A stretch of 64,000 nt of DNA from Rhodococcus ruber NBRC 15591 (lineage in GTDB: Bacteria; Actinomycetota; Actinomycetes; Mycobacteriales; Mycobacteriaceae), in NCBI RefSeq assembly GCF_001894945.1, contig NZ_BCXE01000006.1, positions 1 through 64,000 on the forward strand, read 5' to 3'. How positions within the stretch are numbered: position 1 is the first letter of the stretch; each line of letters starts with the position of its first letter. Shown here one piece after another: positions 58,510-64,000 of this stretch. The translations under genes were made by a program, and so were the position numbers. The notes beneath the pieces were generated by a model that was not told the DNA's origin, did no database searches, and was given only the letters and a program-made list of their open reading frames with translations.

Positions 58510-61500
58510 ATGACCCGCACCTCCGCGCTCGAAGACATCGTTCCCCTCTCGCCGCTGCAGCAGGGCCTGCTCTACCTCAGCACCGTCGCCGCGCCCGACG
58601 ACGCCGCCCGTGCCGCCGGAGCCGTCGAACCGGACGCCTACACCGTGCAGTCCGTGCTGCGCCTGACCGGGCGGGTGGACGAGGACACCCTGCGAGCCTC
58701 CGCGCAGGCGCTGCTGGACCGGCACCCTGCCCTGCGCACGTGTTTCCGTCCCCGCAAGGACGGCCGCACCGCCGGGCTCGTCGTGCGCGGTGTCGAGGCG
58801 CTTTGGCGCAGTGTCGATCTCACCGGTTTCGCGGTCGACGAGTCCGAGCGACGTCTCGCGGATCTGCTCGACGAGGATCTGCGCGACTGGTTCGACCTCG
58901 CGCGGCCACCGCTGATCCGCTGGCTGTTCGTGCGATTCGGGCCCGACGACGTGCGGTTCGTGCTCACCGCCCACCACATCGTCGTCGACGGCTGGTCCAC
59001 CCCGATCCTGGTGCGCGAACTCCTCGAGATCTACGCCGCCGGCGGCACCGCCGCCGGGCTGGCCCCGGTGCGGCCCTTCCGCGACTACCTCAGCTGGCTC
59101 GACCGGCAGGACCACGACGCCGCTCGCGCGCTGTGGCGCGAATCCCTCGACGGGCTCACCGAACCGAGCCTCGTCGCCCCGCCCGGCGCCACCCGCGCCA
59201 CCACACCCACCGTCGCACTCGCCGTCGACGTGCCGGTCGAGCTGAACGACCGGCTCACCGGCCTCGCCCGCGACGCCGGCGTCACCCTCAACACCGTCCT
59301 GCAGACCGGCTGGGCGCTGCTGCTGTCCGGACTCCTCGGCCGCGACGACATCGTCTTCGGCGCCACCGTCTCCGGGCGACCGCCGGAACTGACCGGCGTC
59401 GAATCCATGGTCGGGCTGTTCATCAACACCGTGCCCGTGCGGGTGCGCCTGGATCCCCGCGCCACCGTCACCGAGTTGCTGCGACAGGTGCAGCTGGCGC
59501 AGTCCCGCACCGTCGACCATCAGTACCTCGGCCTCGCCGAGGTCCAGCGGGAGACCGGGCTCGGGGAGCTGTTCGACACCCTCACCGTCTTCGAGAGCTA
59601 CCCCGTGGACCGGGACGCGCTCGACCGCGCCGAGCGCGCGGGCGGGGTCACGATCGCCGCCGTCGAGGGCCGCGACGCCACCAACTATCCGCTCGTGCTC
59701 ACCGCGGGTGTCGCCGAGACCCTCGTCATGACCCTCGACTACCGGCCCGGTGTGTTCACCGCGGACGACGCCGCCGCCCTCGCCGACCGCCTCGTCCACA
59801 TCCTCGACACTCTCGCCGCCGCGCCGGACCGCCCGGCCGCCGGGCTGGACCTGCTCACCGGCGCCGAGCGCGGTCGCGTCCTCGGCACGTGGTCCGTCGC
59901 ACCGGCCGCTCCCGCGGATGGCACCGTCGCGGCGCTGCCCGCCCCGGGGGAGCCCGGCACCCTCGCGGTGGTGTGCGGCGCCGAGGAGCGCACCTTCGCG
60001 GAACTGGGAGCGAACTCGGCGCGGCTCGCGCGGCTGCTGATCGAGCTCGGTGTCGGACCCGACGTGCTCGTGGGCCTGGCCCTGCCGCGCTCCGCCGCGA
60101 CCGTCGAGGCCATCCTCGCGGTGCTCGCCGCAGGCGGTGCCTACCTTCCGCTCGACCCGTCGTACCCGGCGGACCGGCTCGCCCACATGGTCGCCGACGC
60201 CCGTCCCGGCGTCGTGCTCACCACCGGCGCCGTCGCCGCGGAACTCGGAGCGACCCTCCCCGGCGGTGGTGCGCACGTCGTCGTGCTGGACGATCCGGAC
60301 GTGCAGGCCCGGCTCACCGCACTGCCCGCCGCCGCGGTGACCGACGCCGACCGTCGCCGGCCGCTCCGCCCCGGCCACACCGCGTACGTCGTCTACACCT
60401 CCGGCTCCACCGGTCTCCCCAAGGGCGTCGTCGTCACCCACGCCAATCTCGCCGATTTCCTTGCCGCACAGAGAGAGACGATCATGCCGTCGGCATCGGG
60501 CACACGGCGGGTGCTGCTCACCTACCCGTTCGCCTTCGACTCGGCCGTCGCCGCCCTGACCTGGCTGCTGTCCGGGCACACCCTGCACGTGCTGCCCGAC
60601 GAGCACCGCAGCGACACCGCATTCGTCGTCGACTACGTGCGCACCCACCGCATCGACCACGTCGACTGCGTGCCCGTGCTGATGAGTGGTCTGCTCGACG
60701 CCGGTCTGCTCGACGGGGACCGCCACCGGCCCGCCACGGTCACCGTCGGCGGCGAGGCCGTCGGGTCGGCGCTGTGGCAGCGACTGCGCGCCGCGGACGA
60801 CGTCGAGGCCTACAACTGCTACGGCCCCACCGAATGCACCGTCGACGCCGCATACACCCGGATCGGCGGCGACACCGTCACCATCGGCGGTCCGACCCCC
60901 GGCACCCGGCTGTACGTGCTGGACCGGTGGCTGCGACCGGCGCCACCCGGTGTGGCCGGGGAACTCTACGTCGCCGGCGGCGGTCTCGCCCGCGGCTACC
61001 TGGGACAGCCCGGCCGGACGGGGGAGCGGTTCGTCGCCGACCCGTTCACCGGGGACCGGATGTACCGCACCGGTGACATCGTGCGGTGGCTACCGGACCC
61101 AATCGACACCGTGCGGTGGCTACCGGACCCAATCGACACCGTGCGGTGGCTACCGGACCCGGTCGGCACCGTGCGGTGGCTGCCGGACCCGGTCGACACC
61201 GTGCGGTGGTCACCCGACCCGGTCGACACCGAGCGGGGCGCCCTCGAATACGTGGGCCGCGCCGACGACCAGGTCAAGATCCGTGGTTTCCGCGTCGAAC
61301 TCGGCGAGGTCGAGGCCGCGCTGGGTGCCGTGCCGGGGGTGGATGCCGCGGTCGTCGTCGCCCACACCGACGCCCGCGCCGTGCGTCGCCTGGTCGGCTA
61401 CGTCACCGGAACGGCGGATCCCGGGGCCGTGCGCGCCGCGGTCGCCGCCCGGCTGCCCGACTACCTGGTGCCCGCCGTGATCCTGCCGCTGCCGGTCCTG

Positions 61501-64000
61501 CCGACCACGGCGAACGGCAAGGTCGACCGGAAGGCCCTGCCGGAGCCGGACTTCGGTGCCCTCGCCGGATCCGGTGAGCCCCGCACCGACACGGAGGCGG
61601 CGTTGTGCTCCGCGTTCGCGGAGGTCCTCGGTCTCGACCGCGTCGGCATCGACGACGACTTCTTCACCCTCGGCGGCGATTCCATCGTCTCGATCCAGCT
61701 GGTGTCCCGCGCCCGCACCGCCGACGTGCGGATCACCGCGCGTCAGGTGTTCGAACTGCGCACCGTCGCCGCGCTCGCTGCGGCCTGCGACGCCGACACC
61801 GGGGACGAGCAGCCGGCGCGGCCCGTCGTCGCGGCCACCGGTCCGGTCCCGCTCACCCCGATCGTGCGCGAAACCCTCGACCACGGAGGGGATCTGCGGC
61901 GCTTCGCGCAGTCCCGCCTGCTCGTCGCCCCGGCCGGGCTCACCGAAGCGCACCTCGCCGCCGCCGTCGCCGCGCTGCTGCGCACCCACCCCATGCTGCG
62001 CTCACGGCTCACCGTGGCCGGCGACAATGCGGAATGGATAGTCCCCGAAGATGTTCCGGACCCCGAGAGCGTGGTGCGCCGCGTCGATGCGGCAGGCCTC
62101 GACGGCCCGCGGTGGCGGGCGCTGTTCGAGACCGAACGTGCTCGCGCCCTGGCGGAGCTCGACCCCGCGGCCGGACGGATGATCCGCGTGCTGTTCCTCG
62201 ACGCCGGCCCCGGCGCCGCGGGCCGGGTGTTCGTCGTCGTGCACCACCTCGTCGTCGACGGTGTGTCGTGGCGGATCCTGGTTCCCGACCTCGCGGCCGC
62301 CGTCGATCAGGCGCGGCGGGGCACCGCGCCGGACCTCGAGCCGGCCGGCACCTCCTTCCGGGACTGGGCGCTCGGGCTCACGGCAGCCGCCGCGTCCGAC
62401 CGCATCGCGCAGTCCCTGCCGCGCTGGCAGCAGATCGCCGGAACCGCGGAACCGCGGCTCGGTGCCCGCCCGCTGGATCCGGCGCGCGACACCGTCGCCA
62501 CCACCCGGTCGCGCGAGGTGCGGGTCCCCGTGGCGGTCGCCGAGAAGGTGCTCACCACCGTGCCCGCCGCGTACCGGGCGGGCGTCGCGGATGTGCTGCT
62601 CACCGCCCTTGCGCTGGCCGTGACGTCGGTACGCGGCGGCGACGGGCTGCGCGTGCACCTCGAGGGCCACGGCCGCGCCGAGCACGTCGTGCCGGGCGCC
62701 GACCTGTCCCGCACCGTCGGCTGGTTCACCACCCTGTACCCCGCCGTGCTCGACGTGTCCGGCATCGATCCGCACGAGGCACTCGCCGGAACCGCCGCCA
62801 CCGGGACCGCTCTCGCACAGGTCAAGGAGTCGCTGCGGGCACTGCCCGACGACGGCATCGGATTCGGGCTGCTGCGGCGGCTCGCCCCGGAGGGAACGCG
62901 GAACTTCCCCGGATACCGTTCTCCCGACGTGATGTTCAATTACCTCGGCCGGATGACGCTGGGGGAGAACACCGGTCAGGAGTGGTCCACCGCACCGGAG
63001 GCGGGCGCGCTCGGCGGCGCCGTCGATCCCGGCACCCCGCTCGACCACGTCCTGGACGTCAACGCCGTCACCGAGGACGGCCCCGCCGGACCCGAGATCG
63101 TCTGCGAATTCACGGCGGCGGAGGTCCTCGACGAGGAAACCCTCACCCTCGTCGCCCGTCGCTGGGTGGAGGCCCTGACCGCGCTGGCCCGGCACGCCGA
63201 CGCCCCCGGCGCCGGCGGTCCCACCCCGTCGGATCTGACCTACCCCAGGCTGACCATTACGGAACTGGACTCGCTCACCGCCGAACTCGGCCCGATCGAC
63301 GACGTCGTGCCGCTGACGCCGTTGCAGCGCGGGATGTTCTTCCTCGCCGGTCTCGACGGCGGCACCGGGACCGACGTGTACTCGATGCAGACCGTCCTCG
63401 ATCTGCGCGGTGATCTCGACCGGGACACCCTGCGGCGCAGCGCCGCCGCGTTGCTGCACCGGCACGCGAATCTGCGCACCGGGTTCCGCACCACTGCGGC
63501 GGGCGACCCGATCGGCGTCGTCCTCCGGGACCCGGGCCTGCGGTGGACGGACGTCGCCCTCACACCCACCCCCGTGACCACCCCCGCCCCCGTGGCCGAA
63601 TGTCACATTGCGTCGGTTGGATCGACGCAATGTGACATTCGGCCGGTCGAGGAGCGCAGCGACGAGCTCGTCGCCGCCGACCGCGCCACCCGGTTCGACG
63701 TCGCGGCCGCGCCGCTGGTGCGGTTCACGCTCGTGTGCCTCGCGCCGGACCGGCACCGGTTGATCGTCGCCGCGCACCACCTGCTGCTCGACGGGTGGTC
63801 GTCGCCGCTGCTCGTGCAGGAACTGTTCACCCTGTACGGGGCGGGGGCCGATCCGGCGGCGCTGCCCGCGGTCCGGCCGTTCACCGACTACCTCGCCTGG
63901 CTGGGCGACCGCGACACCGACGACGGACTGCGCCGCTGGAGCGAGGCACTCACCGGGGTCGAGGAGCCCACGCTGCTCGCCCCCGCCGGCTCGTCGCTCG
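58510..64000 (+). CDS. Siderophore NRPS, C-A-T-E-C..., 3' end beyond the window
   Basis: At least 1,830 residues with no stop before the edge. C1 (about 8-440; AHHIVVDGW with His155-His156 and Asp160), A1 (450-1000; [11 protein letters not shown] near 629, CYGPTEC, and an expanded A7-A8 hinge at 858-907), T1 ([14 protein letters not shown], Ser1058), E (1110-1560; [14 protein letters not shown] near 1245, [20 protein letters not shown]) and C2 (from 1597; [11 protein letters not shown] near 1755). The A1 specificity residues I read as DSADTGCVD, close to those of A2 in the first NRPS. C2 carries an in-frame palindromic insert at 1695-1711. The N-terminus [20 protein letters not shown] is typical for accepting a chain from an upstream E domain, here that of the NRPS ending at 52727. 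The start ATG has only a weak AGG upstream. Confidence 0.95.
61081..61230 (+). repeat. 5 x 30-bp in-frame tandem repeat in an NRPS adenylation domain
   Basis: Five 30-bp units from 61081 encode [40 protein letters not shown] and [10 protein letters not shown]. The first two DNA copies are identical. The array lies between motif A7 (YRTGDI) and A8 ([13 protein letters not shown]): 57 residues separate GD from YVGR here, compared with 11 and 15 in the two A domains of the first NRPS. Confidence 0.97.
63594..63644 (+). repeat. Perfect 51-bp palindromic element inside the NRPS
   Basis: Two exactly complementary 22-bp arms (63594-63615 and 63623-63644), beginning GGCCGAATGTCACATTGCGT, flank the 7-nt loop GTTGGAT. 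The element is 17 codons long and reads in frame as [17 protein letters not shown]. It is AT-richer than the surrounding gene. In the condensation domain it sits in a region that is about 22 residues longer than the same place in the first C domain of this protein. Confidence 0.95.

Follow-up and report, generated by a model that had tools for sequence, protein, structure and literature searches.

A perfect palindrome that lies in frame inside the gene of a nonribosomal peptide synthetase (NRPS) raises the question where such a segment comes from and, in case it belongs to a repeat family, what the members of that family do in the genome at large. The palindrome considered here is located near the end of the window, i.e. 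the 64,000-nt stretch of Rhodococcus ruber NBRC 15591 that was analysed, and an earlier note on this DNA had read it as a mobile or formerly mobile repeat, comparable to the Rickettsia palindromic elements (RPEs), that became tolerated in a megasynthase. The sequence agrees with that note in that two perfect 22-bp arms surround GTTGGAT at 63594-63644, in the reading frame of the NRPS. The features are the following:

63594-63644, no strand assigned: 51-bp palindromic element, in-frame copy of a dispersed family (from the sequence, the strict copies in the genome and the R. aetherivorans orthologue)
63594-63615, plus strand: left 22-bp arm (from the sequence)
63616-63622, plus strand: 7-nt centre GTTGGAT (from the sequence)
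63623-63644, plus strand: right 22-bp arm, exact reverse complement of the left arm (from the sequence)
63596-63608, plus strand: conserved outer arm motif CCGAATGTSACAY (39 of the 49 relaxed R. aetherivorans copies match both outer motifs without a mismatch)
63630-63642, plus strand: conserved outer arm motif RTGTSACATTCGG (same basis)
58510-64000, plus strand, continuing past the window: NRPS gene hosting the insertion (3131 aa in the full contig)

The element reads GGCCGAATGTCACATTGCGTCG-GTTGGAT-CGACGCAATGTGACATTCGGCC and is, as had been remarked, AT-richer than its gene (GC3 of 0.53, against 0.91 across the whole NRPS gene). The RNA fold of 63584-63654 has an energy of -48.8 kcal/mol, compared to a shuffle mean of -23.8 (z -8.3; 0 of 200 shuffles as good). 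The copy could be kept because an insert of 51 bp does not shift the frame and because two of its three forward frames are open (the third contains a stop, TGA). It was correctly placed in the enlarged segment of a condensation (C) domain that is bounded by DVAL, although the stretch from DVAL to the next block counts 41 residues and not the 44 given before; the designation of this domain as the last C domain did not stand, as the gene runs on beyond the window and the protein contains four condensation stretches (Pfam). In the R. aetherivorans orthologue (87% identical) the element is present at the identical codon position, and an assembly error is therefore discarded for the NRPS element. 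The two versions differ at six positions of the 47-nt family core, all inward from the Y position, and two of these six are arm mismatches in the R. aetherivorans copy. The segment is missing from five of five related C domains (G026, G073, G055, G104 and G017 in our numbering of genomes; 55-66% identical), which were among the matches listed and whose relatedness was assessed at the level of the domain. The view of an element tolerated in a megasynthase holds up. The best reading of these alignments is that the NRPS copy would be an old, tolerated insertion in a variable protein segment.

The suspicion that the palindrome stands for a repeat family in its own genome proved right. A 121-base query around the element matched the R. 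ruber genome (G000; 5.33 Mb, 56 contigs) at least 76 times, both strands counted, at about 40 places among the best 40 of 225 candidates. The core of the family spans 47 nt, namely CCGAATGTSACAY, 21 variable nt and RTGTSACATTCGG, and a strict pattern for the arms recovered 48 copies from this genome and 0 with the reversed control pattern, so that a chance palindrome can be dismissed. The two outcomes that the earlier note had named as speaking against its view, i.e. no further copy elsewhere or a uniform length in the orthologues, were thus looked for and not found. For as many as 32 of the 48 copies a strict counterpart exists at the corresponding place in R. aetherivorans DSM 44752 (G001; 25 supported by both flanks, 7 by one); the other 16 are without strict counterpart there, and R. 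aetherivorans holds 10 further copies under a relaxed search.

Strict copies occurred in 2 of 18 genomes of the genus sample (48 in R. ruber, 39 in R. aetherivorans) and in 16 of 251 genomes of the family sample, which are the same two, 12 of 14 Prescottella genomes (2 to 23 copies each) and G122 and G159 with one strict copy apiece; in the order sample the own genome alone was positive (1 of 397). A scan across named records, in which 80 of the 89 stretches among the matches listed were taken in (83 copies), included Rhodococcus, Prescottella and Haloechinothrix among these matches. The three Haloechinothrix copies (L054, L081 and L120), from another actinobacterial family, have the same outer arms with G..C centres and a different inner sequence. 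The phage records and viral contigs searched contained no match to the family, and among the plasmid records (PLSDB) one R. ruber record carried 6 strict copies, two of which adjoin serS and an acyl-CoA carboxylase gene. This record (NZ_CP145323.1, R. ruber MSA14 pmega_4; L290, L291), labelled a plasmid, resembles a piece of chromosome, with serS, pks13, fadD32 and genes for arabinosyltransferases. Two loci compared between NBRC 15591 and this MSA14 record are 99.8% (8.1 kb) and 99.4% (6.7 kb) identical. A search of 20 copy-bearing loci against Rfam gave nothing above the gathering score except an unrelated TPP riboswitch (L018:696-794, minus strand), and for the window copy Rfam returned only sub-threshold matches, mostly to miRNA families.

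The genomic position of the copies, for which gene contexts were taken from a home-made codon-based gene finder, is strongly biased. In R. ruber 43 of the 48 strict copies are found in intergenic gaps, with 27 copies between convergent genes, 14 between codirectional and 2 between divergent ones, 4 inside a predicted gene and 1 at a contig edge; the 39 copies of R. aetherivorans divide into 22 convergent, 13 codirectional, 2 divergent and 2 inside genes. The excess of convergent over divergent gaps has p-values of 1.6e-6 and 3.6e-5, respectively. Median distances to a gene 3' end are 22 nt (R. ruber) and 19 nt (R. aetherivorans), those to a gene 5' end 79 and 80 nt, and of the codirectional copies 12 of 14 and 12 of 13, respectively, are closer to the stop of the upstream gene. 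In each of the two genomes five genes end inside a copy, at core offsets 40, 30 or 10, the TGA of the arm being located at offset 40. The distributed annotation of R. ruber MSA14 (PLSDB) gives a similar picture for its six strict copies: four are convergent and two codirectional, and one overlaps the end of a gene through its stop, at offset 40. The notion that coding sequence is the niche of the element thus had to be given up, as only 4 of 48 own copies are inside predicted genes, two of them merely in C-terminal tails. The family is REP-like since its usual location is the 3' end of genes.

The copies are conserved between the species in an uneven manner. At the shared sites of R. ruber and R. 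aetherivorans intergenic flanks differ by 18.3% and third codon positions by 17.5%, whereas 720 comparisons at the outer positions 0-11, within 30 pairs of 47-nt copies, show a single difference, a number that has to be read with the fact that the search pattern selects for these positions. Two positions that are independent of the pattern vary little: position -2 differs in 2 of 59 and position 18 in 0 of 60 comparisons, and G occupies -2 in 94 of 96 flanks in R. ruber and in 75 of 78 in R. aetherivorans. The relaxed search of R. aetherivorans (49 copies) found no mismatch in the outer letters of 39 copies, one in 7, two in 3 and three in none. Divergence at the remaining inner positions is 8-47%; the inner mean of 22% (over 23 nt) is close to the intergenic 18%, and for this reason we claim no acceleration. 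Within each of three sets the number of Watson-Crick pairs in the inner stem exceeds that of all 500 shuffles (observed versus shuffle mean: 286 versus 255.5 in R. ruber, 240 versus 197.0 in R. aetherivorans, and 370 versus 342.3 in Prescottella). Between orthologous copies the pairing is nevertheless loose: 36 inner pairs changed yet are still paired (21 by changes on both sides, 15 on one side), 46 are paired in just one of the two species, and 8 fit neither class. One orthologous pair (G000:C46:37052-37098 and G001:C69:3330-3376) shares an unusual inner sequence (TGGTCAGACTATCGA).

What the corresponding gene ends of other genomes look like was studied for three genes beside own copies, which we take to be nrdF, a phoH-like gene and pckG (named after their translated ends). 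A hairpin was accepted at a 3' end when it was better than 95% of 60 shuffles, and one phoH and one pckG region in which no stop codon was found were dropped. Outside the own genome a hairpin was present at the orthologous 3' end in 17 of 20 evaluated regions for nrdF, 16 of 19 for the phoH-like gene and 14 of 14 for pckG, and at the three own sites it beats all 60 shuffles. The regions that lack a qualifying hairpin are those of G117, G129 and G001 for nrdF and those of G117, G129 and G014 for phoH. The hairpins of the relatives are mostly of other sequence, some of them from other repeat families; relatives of the present family occupy the corresponding ends in G122 (nrdF) and G010 (phoH). 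The nrdF 3' ends of G017, G014 and G016 (L226, L228 and L231) have a hairpin type in common, GTGCG..GGTAG..CTACC..CGCAC.

Several arm words were encountered. A sister pattern, CCGAACGTSACC, has 2, 3 and 5 matches in G009, G010 and G011, and of 7 loci examined for this pattern 3 (from G009, G010 and G011) correspond to intervals in which R. ruber or R. aetherivorans has the CCGAATGT family; for the remaining 4 there was no counterpart of that family among the loci compared. An unrelated family, GTGATGGGAACC..GGTTCCCATCAC, is represented by 11 copies in G004, all of 47 nt and including one at the phoH site (L286, L288), and by 2 copies of 45 and 49 nt in G017 (L287, L289), with 0 copies in the 16 other genomes of the genus that were searched. 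One could picture from this that lineage-specific 47-nt palindromes end many rhodococcal genes, with an arm word (CCGAATGTSACAY, CCGAACGTSACC, GTGATGGGAACC, possibly CCCAATGT in G122) that is near-identical genome-wide and differs by lineage at the same sites, which would imply a trans-acting factor, or a process of overwriting, by which the arm word is recognised and the copies, the coding ones too, are made to change together. The near-invariance of the arms, with the arm word kept also in coding copies, favours such a sequence reader or ongoing overwriting; as a whole we consider this picture speculative and rather unlikely.

The remaining coding copies provide a second view of the element inside proteins. 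A 351-aa protein, in which Pfam recognises an OB-fold and a dehydratase region of FAS1-like type, contains a copy in its linker. Its gene was matched in 33 of 33 genomes searched, and the linker was readable in 26 of the 30 genomes fetched. The element is present in the linkers of R. ruber, R. aetherivorans, G026 and G122, a diverged version is present in G010 and G011 and a decayed remnant in G151, and no recognisable element was seen in 19 of the 26 linkers read. In all four carriers both arms have GTCAC on the coding strand; the usual C..G form, found in 37 of the 48 R. ruber copies, would put a TGA there, and the linker copy fits its frame because the GTCAC arms avoid it. This copy, too, is best read from such comparisons as a probable old insertion into a variable protein segment. 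Of the two further coding copies of R. ruber, one resides in the C-terminal tail of a TetR-type regulator and one in that of a permease.

With respect to the way in which the family might have been mobilised, the known routes were compared. GTAG or CGTC tags within 12 nt recur at any one offset in at most 2 of 96 flanks in R. ruber and 2 of 78 in R. aetherivorans. A Y1 transposase (PF01797) is encoded in 6 of 24 genomes, none in R. aetherivorans with its 39 copies and three in G010, which has no strict copy; a Y1/RAYT transposase was rejected as the driver, as its presence does not track copy number. Judged from the flanks of occupied sites, no regular target duplications, as would mark a MITE with terminal repeats, were evident beside the copies of these two species: there is no flanking direct repeat of at least 3 nt at 39 of 48 copies (R. 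ruber) and at 29 of 39 (R. aetherivorans). A larger autonomous element bounded by the arms was rejected as well, the sole wide inverted pair among the single arms listed for R. ruber being an insertion sequence (IS). This IS (G000:C25:81825-83630, L222:2326-4131), with TCAG on both sides, encodes a 530-aa DDE transposase (DUF772, DDE_Tnp_1_6) and, because it is located inside the loop of one copy, is a passenger. Insertion sequences strike these hairpins, and two further ones appear similarly broken: the nrdF element of R. aetherivorans (L245) has its loop interrupted by foreign sequence (GGCGGTTTCA..GCGGCCGATGC..), and at the phoH end of G014 (L248) the loop of a different hairpin is interrupted by sequence similar to it. 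Probably GGCGGTTTCA..GCGGCCGATGC.. is another IS that targets such palindromes across repeat families. The copy number, together with the relatives that lack the segment, suggests that the family has spread, and an enzyme or recombination would have mobilised it.

The own draft genome shows a sign that palindromes trouble its assembly, with contigs ending at or near copies (the C29 end, L225:1972; the C1 start, G000:C1:18; and, by offset arithmetic, the C38 end). Five R. ruber copies are an identical 46-nt perfect palindrome, and among five copies comparable with R. ruber MSA14 two of this 46-nt type differ and three copies are identical. These five palindromes were the reason to consider hypermutation or overwriting of the inner stem; they might be overwriting in action or assembly errors. 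As the two comparable ones differ from the near-identical MSA14, the five may be errors of the assembler, which could fold back where contigs end near copies.

How does the family relate to known repeats? SPRITE comes from a host that we take to belong to a different phylum from Rhodococcus. It is a pneumococcal element resembling a rho-independent terminator (PMC10969869; PMC3049150), and on the excerpted descriptions it is alike by its name only, i.e. as a dispersed repeat resembling a terminator hairpin. REPs, as described in the available part of PMC3733652, are 20-40 bp long, form GTAG and CGTC superfamilies and occupy convergent or unidirectional gaps near gene 3' ends, where they sometimes supply the stop codon, and some lie wholly inside ORFs. 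Since that paper reports the same preference for 3' ends and convergent gaps, the supply of stop codons and copies in ORFs, the kind of repeat found here is already known in its outline. The Rhodococcus family is likewise a short, dispersed, mostly intergenic palindrome near gene 3' ends; it differs from REPs as excerpted in its 47-nt core, its lack of a tag and the lack of a Y1 link, and the main text of PMC3733652, as far as available, contains 0 mentions of Rhodococcus, Actinobacteria or Mycobacterium. RPEs are about 150 bp long according to the excerpted PMC10969869, fall in ten families and have nearly half of their copies in ORFs. They have in common with the present family an in-frame palindrome in protein genes with element-free relatives (NRPS, dehydratase/OB-fold); by these partial descriptions they are set apart, as 4 of 48 copies in R. 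ruber and 2 of 39 in R. aetherivorans are inside genes. Bacterial intergenic stem-loops at large cluster at gene 3' ends and prefer convergent gaps, some being grouped in repeat families (PMC1590033, in part); the Rhodococcus family differs from them as described there in having nearly uniform outer arms within a genome, and the available text does not mention Rhodococcus. The excerpted R. equi genome paper (PMC2947987) does not describe the family where it deals with palindromes, repeats, intergenic regions and terminators, and judged by titles and the openings of abstracts none of the open-licence papers listed describes it. What is new is an actinobacterial, untagged palindrome family whose arms vary in sequence from lineage to lineage at corresponding sites.

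Taken together, we consider it most probable (roughly 0.7) that the family is a REP-like, non-autonomous palindromic repeat that likely acts as a bidirectional 3'-end hairpin, and that its coding copies are old insertions. A copy consists of near-constant outer arms CCGAATGTSACAY, a variable inner stem with a tendency to remain paired, and a short loop; it is typically situated some 20 nt past stop codons, chiefly between convergent genes, where RNA read from either strand would fold into a long hairpin. This hairpin would most likely be a bidirectional 3'-end signal, i.e. a terminator and/or a block to exonucleases. A 3'-end hairpin that serves both convergent transcripts is suggested by three observations: where the copies lie, how near the stop codons are on either side, and that different hairpins occupy these locations elsewhere. 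Like an intrinsic terminator, the family has a stable hairpin just past the stop; unlike it, the phoH site, which is the one site scanned with a terminator search, has no U-rich tract after the hairpin, and for this reason U-less termination, or protection of 3' ends that are trimmed back to the hairpin, is what we have in mind. Intergenic copies may thus serve in termination or in the protection of mRNA. Against a 3'-end role speaks that the outer arms are more constant than hairpin formation alone demands, and are so even in coding copies, in which ending transcription would be damaging; the loose pairing between orthologous copies and the missing U-rich tract at the phoH site count against it as well.

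The same evidence can be read in other ways. A purely selfish palindromic repeat without host function might survive where its insertion is harmless, i.e. in convergent gaps, at gene ends and in loose linkers, and such a repeat would agree with the copies in coding segments, the few divergent (promoter) gaps that are occupied, the patchy presence (2 of 18 genomes of the genus, 16 of 251 of the family) and the decayed remnant in the G151 linker. We nevertheless hold it to be an unlikely explanation: two thirds of the own copies (32 of 48) have a strict counterpart in R. aetherivorans, positions -2 and 18 are near-constant despite a neutral divergence of 17.5-18.3%, at which dead insertions should decay, and sites without the element mostly carry another hairpin. 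That last circumstance, with unrelated hairpins at the three sites studied in other genomes, also weakens the proposal that a nucleoid, segregation or regulatory protein binds the element sequence-specifically as DNA, through two inverted 13-nt half sites, and that the hairpin is a secondary matter. A putative protein site would account for outer arms that are constant in coding sequence too, including the linker gene across genera, and for arm words that are lineage-specific (CCGAATGTSACAY, and CCGAACGTSACC in G010/G011), also at corresponding sites, but the inner stem covaries and the location is bound to gene 3' ends, and we regard such a site as distinctly improbable.

Two further alternatives have very little in their favour. 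A true RPE, or a REP mobilised by a RAYT, would likewise be a short palindrome with some in-frame copies and, in the case of REPs, a 3'-end bias like that reported in the available part of PMC3733652; yet neither GTAG nor CGTC is found at a fixed place in the 96 and 78 flanks, and the Y1 transposase, in 6 of 24 genomes, is unlinked to copy number and missing from R. aetherivorans, so that membership of either class is not supported and appears very improbable. From the mobile palindrome of the earlier note this leaves standing that the element is dispersed, in frame and tolerated, and leaves unsupported the coding niche as well as the membership of the RPEs, for which the CGTC tag is lacking and the copies in ORFs are too few. 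That we would be dealing with an artefact of assembly or a chance palindrome could be argued from the draft state of the genome and from the five identical 46-nt perfect palindromes, two of which, where comparable, differ from the R. ruber record; the window copy, however, has an asymmetric loop and recurs at identical codons in a second species that was assembled independently, which refutes an artefact for this copy and makes it hardly credible in general.

For the two proteins the REP-like reading means that a 17-residue tract of the NRPS and of the dehydratase-type protein is of repeat origin rather than a part of the ancestral gene. At the level of genomes it means that one 3'-end site can hold different hairpins in related species, and that there are dispersed palindromes in actinobacteria that neither the published REP tags nor a Y1 transposase explains. 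The family thereby makes it testable whether such palindromes are selfish repeats, mobile terminators or the targets of a trans-acting reader.
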